Below are positions 5,868 to 27,421 of a DNA stretch of 64,000 nt, one piece after another; positions within the stretch are counted from its first letter, which is position 1, and every line of letters starts with the position of its first letter. Location: positions 62,001-126,000 of the forward strand of contig NZ_WVIC01000003.1 of NCBI RefSeq assembly GCF_009939295.1, written 5' to 3'. The stretch comes from Petrachloros mirabilis ULC683 (GTDB lineage Bacteria; Cyanobacteriota; Cyanobacteriia; Thermosynechococcales; Thermosynechococcaceae). Position numbers and translations under genes: made by a program. Below the pieces are notes generated by a model. The model saw only the letters and a program-made list of their open reading frames with translations. It did not search any database and had not been told where the DNA came from.

Positions 5868-8486
5868 ATGAAGCACCATCATTGGATCGCCACAGGCGCA
5901 TGGCAACGCAGTATTCTCCTGGTTCTGCTTCTGGGTACCGGGAAATCAGTCCTGCTCTCTCCCCTCGCATCGGCCACTATGAATCCGGTGCCCCTACCCC
6001 TGGCTCAGATCGCAGAGCCTACGGATCCCACTGTGCAACAGCAGCTTGAAATGCAACTGCGGGTCTTTGTCTGGGTGATGTTTGGCGTACTGGTGAGTCT
6101 GGCAACGGCAACAGGGGTCGGGCTGTTTTTGCTGCGGCGCTCCGTGCTCCGGGAGGTTACCGAGGTCGTGCAGGCTCATCTCCAAGAAATGACCGACCTG
6201 AAGGCGCGGCTGTCAATTGCCAATGATGCGGTTGAGACGCTGCTGCGAGAAGCCGCGTCTCTTAAGGCAGATCTGGGTCAAGAGGCCGATGGGTTTTATG
6301 CAGAGTTGGGGCATAAGCGCCAGGAGATCACCCAGCAGTTAAGCCACTTTGCCGAAGCTCAACAGTGGTCTCTCCAAGAGCTAGAGAAAGTGCTAGCCTC
6401 AGCCCACGAAACCATGGCACACCTGGAAAGTCATTCTTCGCAGCAGTTAGAGCAGGTGCGCCACCATTTACAAGACGAACAACACCGGATCCTAGATCAT
6501 TTACGCCAACAAGAGCGTACCTTTGAATTGCAATTGTCAGGCTTTGAAGCCGAGGCTAGCAGTCATAAGACGGTATTGCTAGAAACCCTGCGACAAGCAG
6601 AGATGGGCTTTCAAAGCCAGTTAAGCCAATTTCAGACTGCGGCTCAGCAGCAGCGAGATTTGGTGCTGCAACACATAGAATCCTTGGGCACAGCCTTCAA
6701 GCCCCAATTGGCTCACCTAGAAGAGCAGGTGCATCGGGAACAACAGGCAGTTCTGGGGGCACTCAAGGGAGCTGAGGGAGCGTATCAAACCCATCTCGAC
6801 CAGTTATATGGTGCCGCTCAAACGGAGAAAGAGGACTGGGTACGGCAACTGGGTCAGGTGCAGGCCGACTATCAAGCCCATCTCCAAGATCTCAAGACTG
6901 AAGCACAGCAGCAATGGCATGAAAGCCTTCAGCATTTGGGGCAGATGGCGCAAAACTTTGCCCCCCGCCTGTCAGAGTTTGAGGCAGCCGCCCAGGTTCA
7001 GGCCGCCCAGGAGCGCGATCGCACCCTAGCCAAACTAGAACGCTTAGGCACCGACTTGGCCACCCAACTGCGCCAGTCCTACGCAGAGGCACAGGGTGAG
7101 TCTCAGCAGCTTTTACAGCAGTTGCAAGGGCTAAGTGCCGAATTTATGGCGGAGTTGACAACGGTACGCACCCAACTTGAACAGCAACAGCAGTTGACCT
7201 GGGCACAAATCCAGGGCTTAGAAACCGAGGCCAGCGGCCAGGTAGCTGGCCTCAAGCAGGCTGTTCAAACCCAACAGCAGCAGACCCTAGACAGCATTCA
7301 AACCCTAGCCAATCAGGTCACCCGCCAGCTCACGGCCTTACAACAAGATCTGGGCAACCAGCGGGAGCAACAGCAACACCATCTCAAGCACTTGCAGTCT
7401 GACACCGAGGCCGCCCTGTCTGAGGTGTTGCAAGCCGCACAAGGTCGTAAAGACGAAATTTTGGCACAGTTGGCCGCATTAACCCCAGCAGAGATTGCCC
7501 AGGATGCCCTGGCCGAGATCACGGCCCAGTTGAGCGAACTCTCTGGCAAACTAGCCCGCATTGAAGAAAATCGCCCTGAATTGCTCATGGATGTGCAGTC
7601 CTACCTGCAACAGGGACAGGAGCAGTTGGCAGCCAAGGACTATGCAGCGGCGCTGGCAACCTTTGATCAAGCCCTGAATCTGCAACCCGACAATGCTGAA
7701 ATCTGGTCGCAGCGAGCACTGACTTTGGGGGGGCTGAAGCAGTATGAGGAGGCCATTACTGCTCTAAACAAGGTGCTGGATGTCCGGCCAGATGACCCAG
7801 AGGCTTGGTATCAGCGAGGACTCTATCTGCGCGATCTGCGTCGCTATGACAGTGCCGTGGCAGCCTTTAGTCGAGTGGTTAAAACCCGTCCAGAGGATGC
7901 CAAAGCCTGGCTGAATCGGGGTCTGATGCTGGAGCGACTACAGCGGTTTGAAGACGCGATCGCATCCTACGACCAGGCACTCAACGTCAAACCAGACTAT
8001 CCCGAGGCTCTGCTGAATCGCGGGGCAGTCCTCGGCCTATTACAGCGACACACCGAAGCCTTCGAGTCCTTTGACCAAGCCGTGCAACTGCACCCCCAGG
8101 ATCAGGTGGCTTGGTTAAATCGGGGTCTGGCCTTAGAGGTGCTAGAGCGATATGAAGAGGCCTTTGGCTCCTTTGACCAGGTGGTGCAGTTGGCTCCCGA
8201 GTCGTTCAAGGGCTGGAGTCATCGCGGCTATGCCCTAGCCAAACTCAACCGCGACCAAGAAGCCCTCGACAGCCTCAATCAGGCTTTGAAGCTTAACCCA
8301 GAATATGCCCACGCCTATTACAGCAAAGCCGTTTGCTATATCCTCAAAGGCCAAATTGATCGAGGCTTAGATCACCTCGAACAAGCCGTACAGCTCAATC
8401 CCAAATTGATCCAAGAAGCCCGCACCGATCCAGACTTTGTGGAGCTACGCAATGATGCTTGGTTTCGAGAAATTGTGTCCCGTTGA
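5868..8486 (+). CDS. membrane-anchored coiled-coil protein with C-terminal TPR repeats
   Basis: The protein is 872 residues. It has a signal-like hydrophobic N-terminus (16-36) and a membrane helix at about 66-88 (VFVWVMFGVLVSLATATGVG). A very long Gln- and Leu-rich coiled coil runs from about 90 to 560. At least seven tetratricopeptide repeats fill about 585-860 (for example AWLNRGLMLERLQRFEDAIA). Such proteins usually act as membrane-tethered scaffolds for protein assembly; the partner here is unknown. It is transcribed alone, with a 238-base upstream gap and no gene closely following. Confidence 0.8.
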   Translation: MKHHHWIATGAWQRSILLVLLLGTGKSVLLSPLASATMNPVPLPLAQIAEPTDPTVQQQLEMQLRVFVWVMFGVLVSLATATGVGLFLLRRSVLREVTEVVQAHLQEMTDLKARLSIANDAVETLLREAASLKADLGQEADGFYAELGHKRQEITQQLSHFAEAQQWSLQELEKVLASAHETMAHLESHSSQQLEQVRHHLQDEQHRILDHLRQQERTFELQLSGFEAEASSHKTVLLETLRQAEMGFQSQLSQFQTAAQQQRDLVLQHIESLGTAFKPQLAHLEEQVHREQQAVLGALKGAEGAYQTHLDQLYGAAQTEKEDWVRQLGQVQADYQAHLQDLKTEAQQQWHESLQHLGQMAQNFAPRLSEFEAAAQVQAAQERDRTLAKLERLGTDLATQLRQSYAEAQGESQQLLQQLQGLSAEFMAELTTVRTQLEQQQQLTWAQIQGLETEASGQVAGLKQAVQTQQQQTLDSIQTLANQVTRQLTALQQDLGNQREQQQHHLKHLQSDTEAALSEVLQAAQGRKDEILAQLAALTPAEIAQDALAEITAQLSELSGKLARIEENRPELLMDVQSYLQQGQEQLAAKDYAAALATFDQALNLQPDNAEIWSQRALTLGGLKQYEEAITALNKVLDVRPDDPEAWYQRGLYLRDLRRYDSAVAAFSRVVKTRPEDAKAWLNRGLMLERLQRFEDAIASYDQALNVKPDYPEALLNRGAVLGLLQRHTEAFESFDQAVQLHPQDQVAWLNRGLALEVLERYEEAFGSFDQVVQLAPESFKGWSHRGYALAKLNRDQEALDSLNQALKLNPEYAHAYYSKAVCYILKGQIDRGLDHLEQAVQLNPKLIQEARTDPDFVELRNDAWFREIVSR

Positions 8487-13829: not shown

Positions 13830-13930
13830 TTCATAACTTTTTGGCACGCTTAAAAACTTAATTTTGAAAGGCGGAAGCATTTTTGCAGGGTTGCTCTTTT
13901 AAGATGGGGGCAGTCTTTTGAGATCTAGCA

Positions 13931-14328
13931 ATGCTACGTCGATTTGAGCGAGTTTTACAGCCTGATCAACTCTTACGAAATTGGGAGCGCACAACCGCAC
14001 CGTCTCTGGGAAAAGAGCTGGAAGTGAGTGAACGAACCGGGCGCTATGACTTAGATTTTTTACGCGATCGCATGGGTGCACCGATTGCTTGCTCTCGTCA
14101 ACGGGGATACACCAACAGGAACGGCGTTGGCACCCCGACATTACCGAACATGGGGATCGATCGCTGACCTTGACGCTGCCAGTGGGGAGACTCAATGACC
14201 TCAACCGCTAGGTTTGGGGATATGGGCAAGGTGCTAAGGTCTTGGCTCCACCTGAGTGGGTGGCGATGGCACGGGATGAGTTGGCGGGAATGCATCAGTA
14301 CTATTGCGATGAAGGGCAGCAGCAATGA
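13931..14328 (+). pseudogene. WYL-domain transcriptional regulator, internally deleted
   Basis: The N-terminus (MLRRFERVLQPDQLLRNWER, then LGKELEVSERTGRYDLDFLRDR) is the HTH of WYL-type regulators, which control several CRISPR-Cas loci. After GAPIACSRQRGY the sequence jumps, near 14115, into another frame that reads the far C-terminal WYL region (ERRWHPD, SLTLTLPVGRLNDL, then after a stop at 14208-14210 VWGYGQGAKVLAPPEWVAM). The middle of the protein, normally about 150 residues, is missing. Its final TGA overlaps the cas3 start as ATGA, showing it was the first gene of the cas operon. I infer loss of function. Confidence 0.8.
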
Positions 14329-17125: not shown

Positions 17126-18691
17126 ATGAATGAAACACCGTCCTCTTTTAACCTAATCGATCGCCCCTGGATTCCGGTGATGACGCCCGATTTCCAAATC
17201 CGGGAGGTTTCCCTCGTTGAACTCTTTCAAACCTGGGAAACCCTGTGGGAAATCCAGGCCGATAACCCACCCACTACTCTGGCGATCTATCGCCTGCTGC
17301 TAGCGATTCTCCACCGCGCCCATCAAGGGTCACGGAATGAAGACCACTGGGAAGAGATTTTTGAGGACAACGGTCAGAGGGCGATCGCCTATCTCAACCA
17401 ATGGCGCGATCGCTTTGACCTACTCCACCCCGACCATCCCTTCATGCAAGACCCCATCTTGCCCCTAGACAAAGCCGTCCCTATCTACGCCCTCCACACC
17501 ATGAGCACCTCCCAGGTGTTCTCCCATGAGCACGAATGGAGCGGCTACAGCATTTCTCTACCCCAAGCCGCTCGCTTGCTGGTGCGACTTCAGGGGGTGG
17601 ATATCACCAGCCTAAGAGCCTTCTACGTGGGGCAATCCAGCGGCAACCGCTCGGCAGTCAATACCCCCACCATCAATGCCGCCAATGTGCTCGTGCGGGG
17701 CAGCACCCTGAAGCAAACCCTGCTGTTCAACCTGATGCGCTATGACCCGGCCTCGGAGGTGCCCAGTGTGGTCACGGGAGAAGATCTGCCCGCTTGGGAG
17801 ACGGGCTATGGCGGCAAACCTAAGAAGACGACTCCCCAGGGCTATATCAGCTACCTCAGCTTTCCCTGGCGACGGTTGCGGCTGTTTCCCGAAAACGGTG
17901 AAGTCAGCCAGTTGGCAATCACGATGGGGAATTCTCTACCGGATCAGGTGTCGCCCCAACAGTGGGAATGTGGAGTCGCCTATCGGGAGGACAAGCCCGT
18001 GCGCCTGTCCTTGAGGAAGCAACTTTGGCGGGATGCCGATAGCTTTTTGCTGACGGCAGAGAAGCAACATCGCCCCCGCATTGTGGATTGGCTTGCCAAT
18101 TTGAAATCAGAAGACTTGATTGATGATGTCGTGACTTTTCAAATCTCTGGTCTTAGTGCGGATAAGGCTAAGCCTTTGGGGTGGAGTTGGGAGCAGTTTT
18201 CGGCACCCATTCGGTATGTGACTGATGCGGATTTGGCGACGGTGCTGAAGGGTGCGATCTCGATCGCCGAAGAACACCAACAGATCTTCCGATCCTTCCG
18301 GGGTAGCCCCTACTTCGCCCTGGCAGAAGTCCTCAAGTATGGGGAGGCTGGCAGCTTGGCCAGTGCCCTGGATGGGGAATCCCGTTATTGGGTAGAGCTT
18401 GATCGCAAATTTCCTGAACTGCTTCATGCTCTACCCCGAGACAGCCAAACCGGAGCCGATGGCATCACCCGCTATGGGTTTAAGGAATTGCCCGCTTGGA
18501 CTCAGACGGTTCAAACCGCTGCCCGTCAAGCTTTCACCGAGTCCATTGCATCCATTCGCAACTACCAGGCCAGAGCCGCTGCCCTGCGCACCTTGGAGTG
18601 GAAACTCGCAGATTTGCGGGCCAGCCCAGAGGAGAAGGAAGCCAAAAAAGCCAAAGCTGCTGCCAAGAAAAAAGAAAAAGTTGCCAAATAG
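17126..18691 (+). CDS. casA: Cascade large subunit Cse1/CasA (type I-E)
   Basis: The large subunit reads the PAM and recruits Cas3. It has 521 residues, usual for Cse1. The start FNLIDRPWIPVMTPDFQIREVSLVEL is the standard family opening. Further family signs are ALHTMSTSQVFSHEHEWSGYS and the SGNRSAVNTPTINAANVLVRG loop. The last 20 residues are a Lys/Ala-rich tail (EKEAKKAKAAAKKKEKVAK) not typical of the family core. cse2 follows after 11 bases, so the two are co-transcribed. Confidence 0.93.
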   Translation: MNETPSSFNLIDRPWIPVMTPDFQIREVSLVELFQTWETLWEIQADNPPTTLAIYRLLLAILHRAHQGSRNEDHWEEIFEDNGQRAIAYLNQWRDRFDLLHPDHPFMQDPILPLDKAVPIYALHTMSTSQVFSHEHEWSGYSISLPQAARLLVRLQGVDITSLRAFYVGQSSGNRSAVNTPTINAANVLVRGSTLKQTLLFNLMRYDPASEVPSVVTGEDLPAWETGYGGKPKKTTPQGYISYLSFPWRRLRLFPENGEVSQLAITMGNSLPDQVSPQQWECGVAYREDKPVRLSLRKQLWRDADSFLLTAEKQHRPRIVDWLANLKSEDLIDDVVTFQISGLSADKAKPLGWSWEQFSAPIRYVTDADLATVLKGAISIAEEHQQIFRSFRGSPYFALAEVLKYGEAGSLASALDGESRYWVELDRKFPELLHALPRDSQTGADGITRYGFKELPAWTQTVQTAARQAFTESIASIRNYQARAAALRTLEWKLADLRASPEEKEAKKAKAAAKKKEKVAK

Positions 18692-18702: not shown

Positions 18703-19257
18703 ATGACCACAACCCAAACCCCACCCCGTAATCGACTAGAGCGAGAAACAAAATTCCTACAGGCGATTCGCGATCGCATCAAAAATGATACCGGTGCCAA
18801 AGCCACCTTCAAACGGGCACTCTCTGGTGAACACCACCATTTACGCAAAGTTTACCGCTTTACACTGCCCTATTTGGAAGGTATCCACGAGCGGCAACAG
18901 GATATCTGGATTTTTGTGGCTTGCCTCTCGATTTACCATGACCAAGACTCTGAGCCAGCCCCCCGCAGTTTTGCCAAAAGCTGCCTGGACTTACACAACA
19001 GCAGCGAGTCTAAAGGCCCAGAACGACGATTTAGAACCTTGCTAGATACCGATCTTGTTGATATCCAATCTCCGATTACGGCTTTGGTGCGACAGATCAA
19101 AAGTAAAAAAGACAAGAAAATTCCTGTCTATTATCCCCAACTCATAGTCGATCTCTGTTTCTGGGATCATCCCGATCAATTTGTCCAAGACCACTGGGCT
19201 AAAACCTTCTGGCGAGCAACGCTCCCTTCAAGCAAGCTGGACGAGGCGGAACCATGA
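18703..19257 (+). CDS. casB: Cascade small subunit Cse2/CasB
   Basis: The small helical subunit forms the dimer that stabilises the R-loop in Cascade. It is 184 residues, all-helical, with GAKATFKRALSGEHHHLRKV near residue 30 and FVACLSIYHDQ, as in the family. KKIPVYYPQLIVDLCFW and VQDHWAKTFW near the end match the C-terminal helices. It overlaps the following DUF2283 gene by four bases (ATGA), which ties the inserted small genes to the cas transcript. Confidence 0.92.
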   Translation: MTTTQTPPRNRLERETKFLQAIRDRIKNDTGAKATFKRALSGEHHHLRKVYRFTLPYLEGIHERQQDIWIFVACLSIYHDQDSEPAPRSFAKSCLDLHNSSESKGPERRFRTLLDTDLVDIQSPITALVRQIKSKKDKKIPVYYPQLIVDLCFWDHPDQFVQDHWAKTFWRATLPSSKLDEAEP

Positions 19258-19463
19258 AAATCATCTATGACCCAGAGGTAGACGTGCTGAGAATCTTATT
19301 TCAAGACACGCCTATTAGCGAAAGCGACGAGGATGGGTTCGGCATTATTTTCGATTTTGATGATCAGGGCAATGTCGTTGGCTTAGAGGTTCTGGATGCA
19401 TCTCAGCGCATCGACGATCCCCAACCAGTTAGCTACACGATTGCAAAACCCACACTTCGTTAA
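19254..19463 (+). CDS. DUF2283 family protein (orphan antitoxin-like)
   Basis: The 69-residue protein starts MKIIYDPEVDVLRILFQDTP and continues with GFGIIFDFDDQGNVVGLEVL, the DUF2283 pattern. Members often stand beside DUF4258 genes as predicted toxin-antitoxin pairs; no DUF4258 gene is visible here. The start overlaps the cse2 stop, so it is translated with Cascade. It is the first of four non-cas genes lying between cse2 and cas7. The antitoxin role is inference from the family. Confidence 0.8.
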   Translation: MKIIYDPEVDVLRILFQDTPISESDEDGFGIIFDFDDQGNVVGLEVLDASQRIDDPQPVSYTIAKPTLR

Positions 19464-19488
19464 TCAGTCAAATTCAGGAGGAAACACC

Positions 19489-19698
19489 ATGCAATCCCTT
19501 TCCAAACGAGAGCAAGACATAATCGAAAAAATACGACATCTCCAACCTCACCAGGTTTGGGAAGTAGAGGACTTTATTGATTTTTTAAGTCAACGTTCTC
19601 GAAATGAGCCGACTAGGGAAGAGTTTATCCAGCTATCAGAAGCCGCTTTTGCTAGGGTTTGGGACAATTCTGAGGATTCTGCCTATGACAACCTATGA
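19489..19698 (+). CDS. DUF2281-like antitoxin
   Basis: The protein is 69 residues from ATG 19489, preceded by a strong ribosome-binding site AGGAGG at 19476-19481. KIRHLQPHQVWEVEDFIDFL is the short helical DNA-binding part typical of DUF2281-type antitoxins; the rest (TREEFIQLSEAAFARVWDNSEDSAYDNL) would wrap the toxin. The gene overlaps the MazF-type toxin by 14 bases, a normal toxin-antitoxin layout with antitoxin first. Confidence 0.8.
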   Translation: MQSLSKREQDIIEKIRHLQPHQVWEVEDFIDFLSQRSRNEPTREEFIQLSEAAFARVWDNSEDSAYDNL

Positions 19699-20026
19699 CT
19701 TTGCAGATGTGTTGTTAGTGCCCTTCCCATTCACTGATCAATCAACAACCAAAAAACGACCAACTGTTGTGATTAGCTCTGGCAGCTACAACACCATGCG
19801 TCCTGACCTGATTCTGATTGCAGTAACTAGTCAAATCACTTCACCTTTGCTCTTTGGAGAACTAGAAATTACAAACTGGCAGAATGCAGGTTTGTTAAAA
19901 GTTTCGGTGATCAAGCCAGTTTTAACCACGATTGCAAAGGAGTTGATTATCCGAAAACTCGGTAGGCTTCAGGTATCTGACCGTGAGAGATTAGAACGTC
20001 TTCTAAAGTCTATTCTGTGCCAGTAA
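19685..20026 (+). CDS. MazF/PemK-family mRNA interferase toxin
   Basis: The toxin is about 113 residues from ATG 19685. DVLLVPFPFTDQSTTKKRPT is the family opening, with the substrate-binding PFPFTD loop and the KRP motif; VVISSGSYN and LIAVTSQITSP follow, and KPVLTTIAKELIIRKLGRL is the conserved second half. All expected family residues look intact, so it should be an active RNase held in check by the upstream antitoxin. It lies inside the Cascade operon between cse2 and cas7, in the same direction as the cas genes. Confidence 0.88.
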   Translation: MTTYDFADVLLVPFPFTDQSTTKKRPTVVISSGSYNTMRPDLILIAVTSQITSPLLFGELEITNWQNAGLLKVSVIKPVLTTIAKELIIRKLGRLQVSDRERLERLLKSILCQ

Positions 20027-20068
20027 AACTGACACCTCGCTAATCAGTAAAATCCAGGAGAAACAACC

Positions 20069-20419
20069 ATGCATCAACTCTCTGTCGTTATCGAAAAAGA
20101 TGAATTTGGCTACTACGCCTACTGCTCTGCCCTGGAAGGATGCCAGACCCAAGGTGATTCGATGGAAGAGATTCAGGCCAACATCAAAGAGGCCATTGAT
20201 CTCTATTTATCCACACTGTCTGAGGATGAAAAGAAAGCTATTGCCCTCACCCTAAATTCCTCTTCCAAGAAGGGCTACGGTGTACACACATCTCTAGTTC
20301 TCCGTGTTCCACGCTGCATTAGCCCCCCCAACCCCCCAAAATTGGGGGGAGAAATCCGAAAGTTAGAACTAGTTCCCCCCAGAATTGGGGGGCTAGGGGG
20401 GCGAGTGCAAAGATTTTGA
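20069..20419 (+). CDS. HicB-family antitoxin, C-terminus replaced by repeat DNA
   Basis: Residues 1-58 (LSVVIEKDEFGYYAYCSALE, then GCQTQGDSMEEIQANIKEAI) are a good HicB partial RNase-H-like fold, and a ribosome-binding site (CAGGAG) precedes ATG 20069. From base 20243 the frame runs into a palindromic repeat, so the last 58 residues (SKKGYGVHTS and on) are repeat-derived. The DNA-binding C-terminus usual for HicB is not there. No hicA is adjacent. It is probably an orphan, damaged antitoxin. Confidence 0.7.
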   Translation: MHQLSVVIEKDEFGYYAYCSALEGCQTQGDSMEEIQANIKEAIDLYLSTLSEDEKKAIALTLNSSSKKGYGVHTSLVLRVPRCISPPNPPKLGGEIRKLELVPPRIGGLGGRVQRF

Positions 20420-20639: not shown

Positions 20640-21779
20640 ATGCAACTTGAACTTCATTTGATTCAAAGCTTTCCCCCCGCCAACCTAAACCGGGACGAAA
20701 ACGGAATGCCCAAATCTACGGTCTTCGGTGGTCGTCCCCGTGCCCGCATCTCTAGCCAGTGCCAAAAACGAGCCGTGCGACTGTATTATCAGCAATATTC
20801 AGACGTGAGTGCCGACCAGTTTGCCAATCGTTCTCGCTCTTGGTTGTCTGAGCTGAAAACCCTACTAACCCAAGCAGAAATTCCTGAAGAAAGGGCTGAG
20901 TCAGCAGCTAAGTTGGCTTTGAAATTCTTGGGTGCGGAAGAAGATCCGAAAAAGCCAGGTAAAACCAAAACGATTCTATTTTTAGGTCAGACGGAACTGG
21001 CTGCGATCGCAAATATCCTCGTCAACAATTGGGCAGATATTGAACCCAGCCTGACTGGAGACAAACACGAACTGCCCAAGGAGATTACCAAGGCCATCCA
21101 AAAAGCCTTGGTCGAAACCGGCAAACCCGGTGATGTCGCTCTCTTTGGCCGGATGATGGCCTCCTTGCCCACGGTGAATGTGGATGCTGCCGTACAAATG
21201 GCCCACGCCATCAGCGTCAACACCCTGCAACAGGAATTCGACTTCTTCACCGCCGTAGATGACTTAGGCGGTGACGACGAAACCGGAGCCGACCACATGG
21301 GCGAAACCGGCTACAACAGCTCCACCTACTACCGCTTCGCCACCCTCGATACCGAACAACTCGCCCAAAATCTGGGCAGCACCGAGCACCTCGATGCGGT
21401 GATCAAAGCCTTTGCCGATGCCTTTGTGCAAGCCATTCCCAGCGGTCACCAAAACGGCTTTGCCGCCCATACCCGCCCCGCCGCCGTCATGGCCGTGGTG
21501 CGCCAGGGGCAACCCGTTTCCCTAGTAGATGCCTTTGAGGATCCCATCAGTCCTAAACATGGAGCCAGTTTGTTAGCAAACGCGGTGGGGGCGATCGATG
21601 CCCACTGGGCAGACTTGATGGCCATGTATGGGGAGTCAGGGGTGCAATACAAGGGTATTGTCACCCGCAGTAAATTCACAGACCAATTGGATGCCCTCAA
21701 GCCAGCGAAAAAGGATTCTGTCGAGGTGCTCTTGAGTGAAGCTCTCGGCGCTGCCCTCAACGGCCAGGGAGGGAAGTAG
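20640..21779 (+). CDS. casC: Cascade backbone subunit Cas7e (Cse4/CasC)
   Basis: Six copies of this subunit coat the crRNA in type I-E Cascade. The start MQLELHLIQSFPPANLNRDE followed by GMPKSTVFGGRPRARISSQC is the diagnostic Cas7e opening. ATG 20640 follows GAGGAAA at a good spacing and gives 379 residues. NVDAAVQMAHAISVN and GETGYNSSTYYRFATLD are further family motifs. It is separated from the upstream cas genes by four non-cas genes and a repeat, and followed after one base by cas5. Confidence 0.95.
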   Translation: MQLELHLIQSFPPANLNRDENGMPKSTVFGGRPRARISSQCQKRAVRLYYQQYSDVSADQFANRSRSWLSELKTLLTQAEIPEERAESAAKLALKFLGAEEDPKKPGKTKTILFLGQTELAAIANILVNNWADIEPSLTGDKHELPKEITKAIQKALVETGKPGDVALFGRMMASLPTVNVDAAVQMAHAISVNTLQQEFDFFTAVDDLGGDDETGADHMGETGYNSSTYYRFATLDTEQLAQNLGSTEHLDAVIKAFADAFVQAIPSGHQNGFAAHTRPAAVMAVVRQGQPVSLVDAFEDPISPKHGASLLANAVGAIDAHWADLMAMYGESGVQYKGIVTRSKFTDQLDALKPAKKDSVEVLLSEALGAALNGQGGK

Positions 21780-21780
21780 A

Positions 21781-22431
21781 ATGCTGACCCTATTAATGCG
21801 GCTGCGGGCACCGATGATGAGTTGGGGCGATCATAGCCAGTTTGGTCATCGCGATAGCCGCCGCGAACCCACCAAATCTGCCGTAATTGGCCTCCTCTGT
21901 GCCGCCCTCGGTCGCCCCCGCTGGGAGCCTGTGCATGACCTCGCCGCCCTGAAAATGGGAGTACGGGTCAACAAAGAAGGGGTGCTGCAACGGGATTATC
22001 ACACCGTGCAAGACAACATGCGGGACGACGGGGGCAAGGTCAATACCACCCTTAGCGATCGCTACTACGTGGCTGACGCGGACTATTTGGTGGGGCTTGA
22101 GGGATCACCGGAGCTGCTAAGCCAGCTAGATGCAGCGCTTCAAAACCCCCATTGGCAACTGTATTTAGGCCGCAAAAGCTTTATCCCCAGTCATCCCATC
22201 CGGGTGGGAGTGGTGAATTTGCCCCTACTATCGGCTTTACAGCAGGCTGCCTACGAACATCGAGGTCGCAAGAATCGCCCCAGCCAGTTGCGGTTTGTGC
22301 TGGAAACCACGGACAGCACTGATACCCGCCAAGATGTGCCCCTAGACTGGCAGCGTCGCCAGTTTGGTCGCCGCACCGTCGCCACTGAATATCATCCTTT
22401 ACCGGAGGTTGTATGTACCTTTCCCAACTAA
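21781..22431 (+). CDS. casD: Cascade subunit Cas5e (CasD)
   Basis: Cas5e caps the 5' handle of the crRNA. The product is 216 residues. LLMRLRAPMMSWGDHSQFGH and REPTKSAVIGLLCAALG are the classic Cas5e start, including the Gly-rich region. The LGRKSFIPSHPIRVGV segment also fits. It begins one base after the cas7 stop and overlaps cas6 by 19 bases, as is common in type I-E operons. Confidence 0.94.
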   Translation: MLTLLMRLRAPMMSWGDHSQFGHRDSRREPTKSAVIGLLCAALGRPRWEPVHDLAALKMGVRVNKEGVLQRDYHTVQDNMRDDGGKVNTTLSDRYYVADADYLVGLEGSPELLSQLDAALQNPHWQLYLGRKSFIPSHPIRVGVVNLPLLSALQQAAYEHRGRKNRPSQLRFVLETTDSTDTRQDVPLDWQRRQFGRRTVATEYHPLPEVVCTFPN

Positions 22432-23033
22432 TCTTGAATGACCGGCAACCCCAGGTTCATCGAGATCTGGGCAATGCCCACGCCTTCCACCAAAGGCTGA
22501 TGCATGGCTTTCCCGATCAGCCAACGGAAACCCCACGAGCTGATTGGGCGATTCTGTACCGGCGAGAACCAGATAGCTATGCAGTGCTGGTGCAGTCGGC
22601 AATTGCACCCAACTGGTCTCATTTACCCAACCACTATGTGCAGTGTGAGCCTCAGGTGAAGCCCTTTGAGCTAACCGCCAACACCCTCTCTGTGGGACAA
22701 CAATTACAGTTTCGCCTCAAGGCCAATCCTAGCAAGCGGGACAAAGCAACCCGCAAAACCATCGGCTTCTACCGACGGGAAGACCAACTGGCCTGGTTAG
22801 CCCGTAAGAGAAAGCGCCATGGGTTTGAGCTACTAACCGTAGATGCCATACCAGCCCCAAATGTTTTTGGCACCAAGGCCAAGGGCAAGGCTCCAATTCG
22901 CATTCATACGGTGCTGTTTCAGGGCGTGTTGCAAGTCACCGACGCTGCGGCTTTGGTGGCAGCGGTGCAGCAGGGCATTGGCCGAGGACGTTCCTATGGC
23001 TGTGGTCTCTTGTCTTTAGCCCGCCTAGATTAG
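22413..23033 (+). CDS. casE: crRNA-processing endoribonuclease Cas6e (CasE)
   Basis: Cas6e cuts the precursor transcript at the base of the repeat hairpin. The protein is 206 residues with the ferredoxin-like start MYLSQLILNDRQPQVHRDLG and HAFHQRLMHGF, which carries the catalytic-region His. The C-terminal glycine-rich loop GIGRGRSYGCGLLSLARL is intact. Its substrate repeat hairpin, CCCCACGCATGTGGGG, is present in the array. The stop overlaps the end of the convergent hicA remnant. Confidence 0.94.
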   Translation: MYLSQLILNDRQPQVHRDLGNAHAFHQRLMHGFPDQPTETPRADWAILYRREPDSYAVLVQSAIAPNWSHLPNHYVQCEPQVKPFELTANTLSVGQQLQFRLKANPSKRDKATRKTIGFYRREDQLAWLARKRKRHGFELLTVDAIPAPNVFGTKAKGKAPIRIHTVLFQGVLQVTDAAALVAAVQQGIGRGRSYGCGLLSLARLD

Positions 23034-23523: not shown

Positions 23524-24438
23524 ATGACAAATCTGCGTACCTTACCTAAAGTCCGCGACAGCATTAGCTTTTTGTATTTTGAACACTGTCGGATTGAGCA
23601 AGAAGCCAAAGCGATCGCCATTTTCCAAAAGCAAGAAAAATATGTTGTTCCCTGTGCCAGCCTCTCAACTTTGATGCTTGGTCCTGGCACCCGCATTACC
23701 CATGCAGCCATTAAAACCCTGGCAGATAATGCCTGTGAAGTCCAGTGGGTGGGGGAGGACAGTTTTCGATTTTACTCAGCAGGCCGCCAGAGTGCGGCCA
23801 GTGTGCAGCGACTCCACCATCAAGCCAAAGTCTGGGCCGATCCGCAGCAGCGATTAGCAGTCGTGCGGCGAATGTATGAGTTTCGCTTTCCAGAGCCGTT
23901 ACCTCCTGATCTGACACTGCAACAAATCCGGGGTCGAGAGGGGGTGCGAGTGCGGACGGCCTATGCCCGTATGAGCAAGGCAACGGGTGTGCCCTGGCAT
24001 GGCCGCAGCTACAAACAAGACGATTGGTACAATGCCGACCCCATCAACCGGGCGTTGTCTTCTGCTAATAGCTATCTGTATGCAGTGTGTCAGGCGGCGC
24101 TGGTGTCGGTGGGGTATTCACCGGCCTTGGGCTTTGTCCACACGGGCAAGCCTCTCTCATTTATCTATGACGTGGCAGACTTGTACAAGGCAGAAACGAC
24201 CGTTCCAGCTTCATTTGAGGCTGTGGCCGAAGCAGAAGAAAATGCTAAACCTCAGGTACGCCAGAAGTGTCGAGAAAAGTTTACCCAGTATCGCTTGATG
24301 CGCCGCATTATCCAGGATGTTGATTCGGTCTTGGGCTATGCCGAGGGTGATGACTTGGAAGTGCCTCCGGTTAGCTATCTTTGGGATGATCAGGTGGCCT
24401 GGGTCGAAGGTGGGCAAGACTGGGTGGAGGAGTCGTAG
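23524..24438 (+). CDS. cas1: CRISPR adaptation integrase Cas1 (type I-E)
   Basis: With Cas2 it inserts new spacers at the leader end. It is 304 residues. The start RTLPKVRDSISFLYFEHCRI is typical of Cas1e, QIRGREGVRVRTAYARM carries the first acidic ligand, and GFVHTGKPLSFIYDVADLYK carries the catalytic His and Asp. All metal ligands appear present. It is three bases ahead of cas2. Confidence 0.95.
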   Translation: MTNLRTLPKVRDSISFLYFEHCRIEQEAKAIAIFQKQEKYVVPCASLSTLMLGPGTRITHAAIKTLADNACEVQWVGEDSFRFYSAGRQSAASVQRLHHQAKVWADPQQRLAVVRRMYEFRFPEPLPPDLTLQQIRGREGVRVRTAYARMSKATGVPWHGRSYKQDDWYNADPINRALSSANSYLYAVCQAALVSVGYSPALGFVHTGKPLSFIYDVADLYKAETTVPASFEAVAEAEENAKPQVRQKCREKFTQYRLMRRIIQDVDSVLGYAEGDDLEVPPVSYLWDDQVAWVEGGQDWVEES

Positions 24439-24440
24439 AA

Positions 24441-24710
24441 ATGGTGGTCTTTATTCTGGAAAATGTTTCTCCAAGTTTGCGAGGGGAAGTGAGCCGCTGG
24501 TTGTTTGAAGTGAAGGCAGGTGTGTTTACGGGGAAGCTCTCTGCTCTGGTTCGAGATGAGTTGTGGGCGTATGTGGCCAAGAAACTCGGCAATGGATCTG
24601 CCGTGTTGATCTATTCGACGAACAATGAGCAAGGCTTCAGCGCCCGAATGCTCGGAAATTCGTCGAGGACATTGGTAGACATAGAAGGCGTTCTTCTTGT
24701 CAAAACCTAA
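24441..24710 (+). CDS. cas2: CRISPR adaptation protein Cas2 (type I-E)
   Basis: The 89-residue protein MVVFILENVSPSLRGEVSRW shows the Cas2e pattern, with EVKAGVFTGKLSALVRDELW next. It bridges two Cas1 dimers in the adaptation complex. Only 22 bases separate its stop from the first repeat, so the array leader must overlap the end of this gene. Confidence 0.95.
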   Translation: MVVFILENVSPSLRGEVSRWLFEVKAGVFTGKLSALVRDELWAYVAKKLGNGSAVLIYSTNNEQGFSARMLGNSSRTLVDIEGVLLVKT

Positions 24711-26730
24711 AAAAATCAATAATCTGGGAAGCGTCGTCCCCACGCATGTGGGGGTGAACCGCTTTCATGCTCAAGGTGCGGGACACTGTTCGAGCGTCGT
24801 CCCCACGCATGTGGGGGTGAACCGATTAACAGCATCATTTATAAGGCACTCATCAGCGTCGTCCCCACGCATGTGGGGGTGAACCGGTATACGCCTATGC
24901 TGTTGGGTCTGACCCATACGTCGTCCCCACGCATGTGGGGGTGAACCGTGTCGTTGGTTCAGTAGAAGGAACCAATCAACGTCGTCCCCACGCATGTGGG
25001 GGTGAACCAGGCGCATGGGAAGACTTGTAAAACAGTCTCTAAGTCGTCCCCACGCATGTGGGGGTGAACCTCCTACGAGCGCAGCGAGTCCATCGCCGCG
25101 TGCGTCGTCCCCACGCATGTGGGGGTGAACCCCCCGCCCCCGCATCCCAGTTGAAAGTGCTTCCGTCGTCCCCACGCATGTGGGGGTGAACCGGGCTACT
25201 CAGCGCAACTTGGACAATCGGGATCAGTCGTCCCCACGCATGTGGGGGTGAACCATAGCTAGAGCTTATCAATCATTAAGTATAAGCGTCGTCCCCACGC
25301 ATGTGGGGGTGAACCGGGGGAAAGATCCCCTATACACACACAGAAAAAGTCGTCCCCACGCATGTGGGGGTGAACCGCTAGGAGGATTAAAGGTGATTCA
25401 GGCCATCTTGTCGTCCCCACGCATGTGGGGGTGAACCGACGGCTTCCAGTTAGCCACCAGGAGAAACGCAGTCGTCCCCACGCATGTGGGGGTGAACCGC
25501 GCTCGAAGGCGAGTGGGAAGCGCTGAAAGGGGTCGTCCCCACGCATGTGGGGGTGAACCGGTATCCATTTTTCTAATTCCTCGATTGACTACAGTCGTCC
25601 CCACGCATGTGGGGGTGAACCGTTTTTGATATTCACTGGCTGCAAGGTATCCATTGTCGTCCCCACGCATGTGGGGGTGAACCGTACATGCGTACTGCCG
25701 CAACGTGGTGGGTCAGAGTCGTCCCCACGCATGTGGGGGTGAACCGGAGCGCATGGCCGAAAAAGGCATGTTCGATCTGGGTCGTCCCCACGCATGTGGG
25801 GGTGAACCGATTCGTTCGCAATGGCGCAGGTTAAGCTTAGCGTCGTCCCCACGCATGTGGGGGTGAACCGAGAGTCTACCCGTAACGCTATCAATTAGTG
25901 ATCGTCGTCCCCACGCATGTGGGGGTGAACCGCTGAGCAATTGGATCCCCGTGAAAGATTGTTCGTCGTCCCCACGCATGTGGGGGTGAACCGGCCAGAC
26001 TTGGCATGAAGATGAATCAAGTTCGTCGTCCCCACGCATGTGGGGGTGAACCGCAGATGCGATACTTTTTGTACGCGGTTCAAGACGTCGTCCCCACGCA
26101 TGTGGGGGTGAACCGATGTTGTTTCTGCATCCTACGTTTACGGCGGCGTCGTCCCCACGCATGTGGGGGTGAACCGCGAAAATTTGGACTGCGAGTTTAA
26201 GATGCTTGGTCGTCCCCACGCATGTGGGGGTGAACCGTTGCTTTTGAACGGATTACTGCCGCAAAAGATGGTCGTCCCCACGCATGTGGGGGTGAACCGT
26301 CAAGGACAGCGTCCCTGCTTTTGAGCGATTCGTCGTCCCCACGCATGTGGGGGTGAACCGCAACCTGATCACCACAGTCTTTGATAAATTCAGTCGTCCC
26401 CACGCATGTGGGGGTGAACCGAATAGAATCGTCTGAGCAAGAATCAAAACGGCGTCGTCCCCACGCATGTGGGGGTGAACCGGGTTTTGCACCCTCAACA
26501 AAAGCAGCCACTCGGTCGTCCCCACGCATGTGGGGGTGAACCGTAAATTTCAAACCCAAACCAGAATATCTAGAAGTCGTCCCCACGCATGTGGGGGTGA
26601 ACCGACATAGGAGTCAAAGAAATTGTGCTCTAGTACAGTCGTCCCCACGCATGTGGGGGTGAACCGGCCCAGCGGCGCTGGATTCGACTGCTCAAGCGCG
26701 TCGTCCCCACGCATGTGGGGGTGAACCGCA

Positions 26731-26835
26731 TTTGCCGAGGCGTTTGTCGCCTATACTCTGGCTCCCGAGGAGTATAGGCGACTTGATACAGTGGGCTACG
26801 ATCAAATCGACGAGATCATGCAAAACTATGACTAA
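26731..26835 (+). CDS. C-terminal gene fragment inside the giant spacer
   Basis: The frame reads FAEAFVAYTLAPEEYRRLDT then VGYDQIDEIMQNYD and stops at TAA 26833-26835. It has no start of its own, because it begins at the edge of the repeat. The FAEAFxxY motif recalls C-termini of phage head-morphogenesis or minor-head proteins, but the match is by eye and weak. It is probably not expressed as a protein here. Confidence 0.5.
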   Translation, partial: FAEAFVAYTLAPEEYRRLDTVGYDQIDEIMQNYD

Positions 26836-27063
26836 AACCAAGGCTGAAGAGGTTGAGGCCGAAATGAAGGCATTGATCAATTTGCCGCCCACCATGGAAA
26901 ACTGGGATAAGTTGCAAGCCGCGATCGCAGAATTTGGCAAAGAGCGGCCTTTGCTGAAGTTGCTCCCGGAAGCGTTTATCGTAAGCGCTACGCCTGAATT
27001 TTTAGACGAACTTTCAGAATCGCTGAAAGCCAATAGGATCCGGGAAGATGAGTCCATTACAGC
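26828..27063 (+). CDS. N-terminal gene fragment inside the giant spacer
   Basis: ATG 26828 opens 78 codons (MTKTKAEEVEAEMKALINLP, later FGKERPLLKLLPEAFIVSAT) before the next repeat interrupts the frame. The start overlaps the preceding stop by eight bases. Composition is protein-like: acidic, helical. I do not recognise the family. In frame the reading continues into the repeat and stops at 27088, so the tail there is artificial. Confidence 0.5.
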
Positions 27064-27421
27064 GTCGTCCCCACGCATGTGGGGGTGAACCGTAATCAAA
27101 TCAGTTAGCTATTGACTCAATTACTCGTCGTCCCCACGCATGTGGGGGTGAACCGATTGGGGCAATTCAATCTGTTGGGCTAGGTAGGTCGTCCCCACGC
27201 ATGTGGGGGTGAACCGAAGTTTTTTCGATTTGGGAGTTATTTGCTAATCTTCGTCCCCACGCATGTGGGGGTGAACCGGGACGGGGAGCTTTTTGCGTCG
27301 TTACTCGGTTGGTTATCCCCACGCATGTGGGGGTGAACCGTTGCAACCTTGAGGGCTGGTTCCAGCCATACACGTAGGCTGATCTCGCTTAAACCAAACT
27401 TATGGCCTGTTGATTGCTGTG

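Follow-up and report, generated by a model that had tools for sequence, protein, structure and literature searches.

The 64-kb stretch of DNA analysed here (the window) carries a type I-E CRISPR–Cas system in which cas3, cse1, cse2, cas7, cas5, cas6e, cas1 and cas2 follow one another in order beside a CRISPR array, preceded by the remains of a WYL regulator gene and by an inverted repeat (Table 1). The Cas3 protein is 84% identical to that of genome G002 and 74% identical to that of genome G358. As the eight cas genes are all open and the 38 repeats of the array have identical 24-base cores, nothing in the locus points to prolonged disuse of the system. Within the array, a 332-bp segment (26733–27064) occupies a spacer position; a search against 50,697 phage records came back empty, and contig C25 of G000 resembles it weakly (71% over 105 bp). 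The cse2–cas7 interval holds, at 19396–20419, a gene for a PemK/MazF-like toxin together with two ORFs that fall short of the Pfam cut-off, one DUF2281-like and the other, a HicB-like antitoxin, by a narrow margin. This interval is about 1 kb long in G002 too, and shorter than 100 bp in G358.

Table 1. Features of the I-E locus in window coordinates, with the basis of each assignment.
Feature	Position	Strand	Basis
Inverted-repeat operator core, 23 bp, GGCGGAAGCATTTTTGCAGGGTT, predicted	13870..13892	+	PWM
Putative -10 box TAAGAT, at a fixed distance from the operator	13900..13905	+	Column conservation
5' WYL remnant, complete HTH	13931..14115	+	Pfam HTH_11 and alignment; frame continues to stop 14165-14167
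Internal deletion junction, ~565 bp, +/- 3 bp	14115..14116	+	Alignment with four intact genes
3' WYL remnant, most of WCX, shifted frame, TAG inside, ends in ATGA	14116..14328	+	
cas3 (type I-E), intact, 897 aa	14325..17018	+	Pfam Cas3_HD, helicase, Cas3_C
cse1/casA, intact	17126..18691	+	PF09481, E=1.4e-76
cse2/casB, intact	18703..19257	+	TIGR02548, E=2.4e-12
cas7e, intact	20640..21779	+	ORF; collinear with G358 and Acaryochloris I-E operons
cas5e, intact	21736..22431	+	ORF; homologs in I-E loci
cas6e, intact	22413..23033	+	ORF; homologs in I-E loci
cas1, intact	23524..24438	+	ORF; homologs
cas2, intact	24441..24710	+	ORF; homologs
CRISPR array, 38 repeats, 24-base core identical in all	24733..27340	+	

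The segment heading the operon, 13931–14328, is a pseudogene of an HTH–WYL–WCX transcription factor. The frame opening at its first base encodes the HTH (PF08279/HTH_11, E=8.2e-6, above the Pfam cut-off) and stops after 78 aa; the C-terminal part of the WYL gene follows in a different frame. A sequence-only reading of this DNA had proposed that the regulator lost its middle, with the two ends lying in different frames about 14115, and had suggested alignment with intact WYL genes beside I-E cas3. The loss is borne out by such an alignment. The junction aligns to 14115/14116, residues ~65–253 of 324 are gone (the whole WYL core, 143–208, and the start of WCX), and the intact orthologs that G002 and G358 carry in the corresponding place confirm the loss. 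The extra stop that the reading had placed at 14208 exists, as a TAG at 14209–14211, and replaces a Trp invariant in 38/38 intact relatives. The ATGA overlap was also described correctly, with the terminal TGA at 14326–14328 lying over the cas3 ATG at 14325; the intact WYL genes of close relatives, 324–328 aa long, run into cas3 with the same overlap. Besides the ~565-bp loss, alignment to the intact orthologs reveals two 6-bp gaps in the remnant. In tblastn, residues 1–60 (7e-16) and 250–324 (6e-15) were recovered in order and far above chance. Over 126 comparable columns, the remnant has changed six of 35 near-invariant residues (one being the stop), compared with at most three in any of the 38 intact relatives when each is left out in turn. 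It also carries 19 residues never seen in those 38, the maximum for an intact relative being 17. Since no single open frame runs across HTH, WYL and WCX, the gene does not qualify as a functional regulator. Its close WYL relatives in named records (L018–L064), and most matches of a further search, are cyanobacterial.

Upstream of the remnant, the inverted repeat belongs to a conserved motif. WYL upstream regions were collected from named-genome loci, Cas3-matched genomes and the genome of the window itself; removal of nine duplicates, and of rows L077, L087 and L089 as mis-anchored, left 46. Of these, 39 served to train a 36-column motif; the seven set aside were all broken genes, that of the window among them. 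All 46 regions beat every one of 100 dinucleotide shuffles of their own sequence. The consensus is an inverted repeat, roughly AACCCGGAAGCTTTTTTGCCGGGTT, with the TA of the -10 box 7–8 bp further on. In the window the core ends 7 bp before the -10 box, and transcription would start near 13912. The window site (scored columns 13867–13902) reaches 42.2 bits under the matrix trained without it, against 3.6 for the best of 100 shuffles, and is the only strong match in the window; a pattern search allowing up to three mismatches returned one match in the 64 kb, with 0 mismatches, where 0.23 were expected. Across 1.02 Mb of loci, 84 matches exceeded 15 bits and the reversed matrix gave 0. Five plasmid loci outside the training set all have the site directly upstream of WYL (23.2–40.1 bits). 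Of the three mis-anchored rows, two do have a site, L089 at a greater distance upstream (29.0 bits) and L077 beyond an insertion (38.9 bits); the matrix scan found none in L087.

The same operator stands upstream of the WYL gene in three kinds of operon: I-E operons, I-MYXAN operons resembling that on contig C18 of the window's own genome, and a third kind with more distant Cas6 and Cas3; a plasmid locus with a WYL, cas6, cas3, cmx8 layout and the operator is annotated as type I-MYXAN. Matrices trained on one kind of operon score the other kinds almost equally (medians 30–37 bits), and the window site obtains 37.5, 42.2 and 40.7 bits from matrices trained on I-E, I-MYXAN and third-kind loci, respectively. 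Ten second sites were examined, in I-MYXAN and third-kind loci. Eight of them lie 33–59 bp upstream of a cas4–cas1 fusion gene; with no WYL gene nearby, these suggest that the regulator is diffusible. The inverted repeat is very probably the operator of this HTH–WYL–WCX family, and in the window it is a candidate site that likely still works. Judging by titles, abstract openings and excerpts, no published description of this operator was recognised. Two further occurrences of the motif were noted. In L032 a very strong operator (8224–8259, 46.6 bits) stands ~1.7 kb upstream of the WYL operator, and what immediately follows it is not a cas gene. On plasmid pSYSM of Synechocystis 6803 (L153 7932–8936), a WYL gene of the family with no cas neighbours has the operator upstream (24.4 bits); because of its place on pSYSM and its orphan state, its identification with Sll7009, the Synechocystis regulator discussed below, was ruled out.

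A Cas3 search of 388 genomes of the class matched 21, in 19 of which (not G464 and G592) the 5' end of cas3 and the DNA upstream are visible. The WYL gene at this position is intact in 13, broken in four and absent in two, and the operator is found in 12/13, 4/4 and 0/2 of these groups, respectively. G459 has an intact WYL gene and no recognisable site. The two genomes without the gene are G540, whose Cas3 is only 40% identical, and G018, a concordant negative that has an I-E system but in which the search recovered neither a WYL of this HTH–WYL–WCX family nor an operator site. Apart from the window, the broken genes are those of G028 (an internal deletion leaving HTH and tail), G423 (a frameshift) and G448 (an insertion); a broken regulator gene on its own is ordinary. 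The changes in G423 may be sequencing errors, since its cas3 also has two frameshifts; every other cas gene there is matched in one piece. In G002-like strains the I-E WYL gene is intact and has no second copy. Neither G448 nor G423 has an intact paralog of the family, G423 having one distant match. All cas genes of G448 are intact despite this, so that a paralog is not required for the cas genes to persist. The I-E WYL gene of G448 (L163 2741–4786) is split by an insertion of ~1.8 kb, with the operator and a match to its initial ~54 codons on one side and the remainder of the gene on the other. Two rearranged loci were also seen. On contig C96 of G007 (L164 3305–5777, the same locus as L063), a broken WYL gene runs straight into the end of cas6e, with cas1 and cas2 behind it; this I-E operon has been stripped of its effector genes but retains its operator. 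In L060 (10001–19684), an intact WYL gene and a 45-residue cas3 stub precede a different I-E-like cas set, so that the effector module seems to have been exchanged while the promoter stayed.

The 4.12-Mb draft genome of the window (79 contigs) encodes one WYL protein above the Pfam cut-off, of 325 aa, at C18:72207–73175. The intact copy elsewhere, for which the sequence-only reading had allowed, thus exists as a paralog heading another operon, a type I-MYXAN system; the window gene itself has no second copy. This paralog and the intact G002 ortholog both unite HTH, WYL core and WCX in one protein and thereby belong to the family, and the HTH of the paralog resembles that of the I-E regulators. 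Allowing one mismatch, the genome contains three operator sites, in the window, at the C18 WYL promoter and at the C18 cas4–cas1 promoter, and none of the reversed pattern; two mismatches add one site, within a C18 cas gene. The window and C18 cas4–cas1 sites are identical in 20/20 core bases, a 20-mer that occurs in no other genome among 158 loci. The window and C18 WYL sites share 18/20, which 15/67 others equal, so that they are not unusually close. A comparable arrangement is seen in G028, where the I-E WYL gene with its missing middle retains a 44.6-bit site and the one intact paralog has a site 33/36 identical to it. At the decay roughly estimated for the window remnant (~0.07 changes per site), a stretch of 20 bp would escape change in about a quarter of cases, and the retention of the operator may be inertia.

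The nearest solved structures to the family are PafC and a DeoR-family WYL protein, which we take to be DriD. An FRxDR motif, conserved in 38/38 intact relatives and lying in the deleted part of the window remnant, aligns with R201 and R204 of PafC (residue numbers counted by hand from the alignment). According to excerpts of PMC11804915, these arginines are part of pairs in the WYL domains that, when mutated together, leave PafBC unable to bind ssDNA, the pair of PafB being critical. DriD, as excerpted from a preprint (PMC12340889), is an activator that sits on the -35 element of promoters with a poor -35, always equally far from the -10 box. The promoters studied here have a similar geometry. 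The TA of the -10 box falls in the same column in 60/60 primary sites, which is partly built in, as the matrix that picked them includes the TA columns; the hexamer in the -35 place matches TTGACA at 0–3 of 6 positions; and the fixed -10 spacing recurs in 5/9 second sites. A sigma-70 consensus scan gave no promoter at the window site, as expected if the -35 is absent. Because of the DriD/PafBC-like domain make-up, the ssDNA-binding arginines and this promoter geometry, the balance tips somewhat towards a family of activators that respond to ssDNA.

From these data the following account is proposed. In relatives, the I-E regulator would bind the inverted repeat at the -35 place of the promoter from which it is itself expressed. 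The window operon has lost this regulator, a presumed activator, in cis, with promoter and operator surviving before an intact operon. The C18 WYL protein, the most likely present controller, would then, at even odds, act in trans on the I-E operator; two promoters of its own I-MYXAN operon carry sites of this kind. To the account as a whole (a dead I-E regulator, a kept operator and an ssDNA-responsive C18 paralog that activates in trans) a probability of roughly 0.5 is assigned. The sequence-only reading was right that the regulator is lost; that the system is unregulated does not follow, because the probable operator is kept and an intact paralog stands behind the same kind of site. More tentatively, the odds being somewhat against it, one ssDNA-sensing WYL activator family may run several CRISPR subtypes as one regulon per genome through the shared operator, in which case the C18 WYL would here switch the I-E operon, the I-MYXAN effector operon and cas4–cas1.

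Two broader patterns were also considered. The notion that one of two WYL loci in a genome decays was not upheld: 5/18 loci were broken in two-locus genomes and 6/61 in those with a single locus (two-sided p=0.11). The counts become 7/22 versus 6/59 (p=0.036) once the window and G028, both identified by a different route, are included; this is not relied on. These counts left out G451, G531, G570, G437, G013, G466 and the distant second match of G423 as distant, partial or possibly at a contig edge. Co-adaptation of operators within a genome, which counts as weak support, fits the window and C18 cas4–cas1 sites, G028 and G007, but fails for the window and C18 WYL sites, for G464 and for most of eight within-locus pairs. 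The likeness of sites in G028 and G007 may reflect common descent of the two loci, since these are 82% and 75% identical in DNA, respectively.

Other explanations have to be weighed against control in trans by an activator. The operon may simply have no regulator, its operator being a relic, and would be constitutive if a repressor was lost or nearly silent if an activator was. The regulator at this position is broken in four of 19 I-E loci, two of them without a paralog, and a young pseudogene can keep its operator without selection. However, the genome contains an intact paralog with cross-compatible sites, inertia leaves the 20-bp identity with the C18 cas4–cas1 site unexplained, and the open cas genes and uniform repeat cores argue against long silence, so that we consider this reading rather unlikely. 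It is still less probable that the deletion removed the sensor and left a DNA-binding part, a 78-aa HTH-only protein that would occupy the operator blind to any signal. Start codon, operator and HTH are open, G028 independently retains a 68-aa HTH frame, and near-invariant residues of the window remnant are changed in 1/16 positions of the HTH against 5/19 of the C-terminal part. That difference is, however, not significant (Fisher 0.19), the dimerising WCX part is lost, and the HTH of G028 has lost two of 13 near-invariant residues. An assembly or sequencing error in the window is hardly credible. The genome is a 79-contig draft, but the damage comprises a deletion of 565 bp, a pair of 6-bp gaps, a nonsense change and several substitutions at near-invariant residues, which is more than one type of error, and the adjoining cas genes are clean. 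The pseudogene is regarded as established.

The paralog could also act in trans as a repressor, its site over the -35 place blocking RNA polymerase. Repression is known from WYL proteins of defence systems, namely BrxR, which has a second site downstream (excerpts of PMC9122601), and Sll7009, which represses the type I-D system of Synechocystis 6803 (excerpts of PMC10212523), and the operator does overlie the -35. However, fixed -10 spacing without a usable -35 hexamer fits an activator better, as do the DriD/PafC-like WYL–WCX arrangement and the conserved arginines, and Sll7009 has no similarity to the family; repression is thus the less favoured sign, at odds well below even. The broken gene exposes a cis-regulatory element common to many cyanobacterial CRISPR–Cas operons of different subtypes, and the window offers a natural case in which the regulator gene is deleted and its operator retained. 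The shared operator allows one to ask what turns these systems on, the predicted answer being ssDNA, and whether a single switch may run different CRISPR–Cas systems in one cell.

Among known regulators, BrxR and CapW (of BREX and CBASS, respectively) are similar in that a WYL regulator heads a defence operon and binds an inverted repeat; CapW is reportedly a repressor. BrxR differs in having its site downstream of the -10 box, as excerpts of PMC9122601 have it, and matches the family weakly (E=3.1e-6, residues 138–231). Sll7009 resembles the window regulator in being a WYL protein that adjoins cyanobacterial cas genes. It is, to our knowledge, the only cyanobacterial CRISPR WYL protein to have been tested experimentally. 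Orthology was nevertheless rejected: Sll7009 shows no significant similarity to the family (E=1.4) and belongs to another subfamily, and the first 30 kb of pSYSA contain no such operator (best 9.5 bits). PafBC of mycobacteria is closer, with a WYL–WCX arrangement, PafC as the best PDB match (E=1.8e-16) and R201/R204 in alignment, but it is a heterodimer that serves DNA damage and is not linked to CRISPR. DriD of Caulobacter shares the domain order, the WCX and, in the excerpted preprint (PMC12340889), a site over a poor -35 at a fixed distance from the -10 box. Its structure matches the family from residue 75 on only, and ssDNA binding by the family is putative. Finally, DriD runs a DNA-damage response, whereas the family found in the window heads CRISPR–Cas operons.
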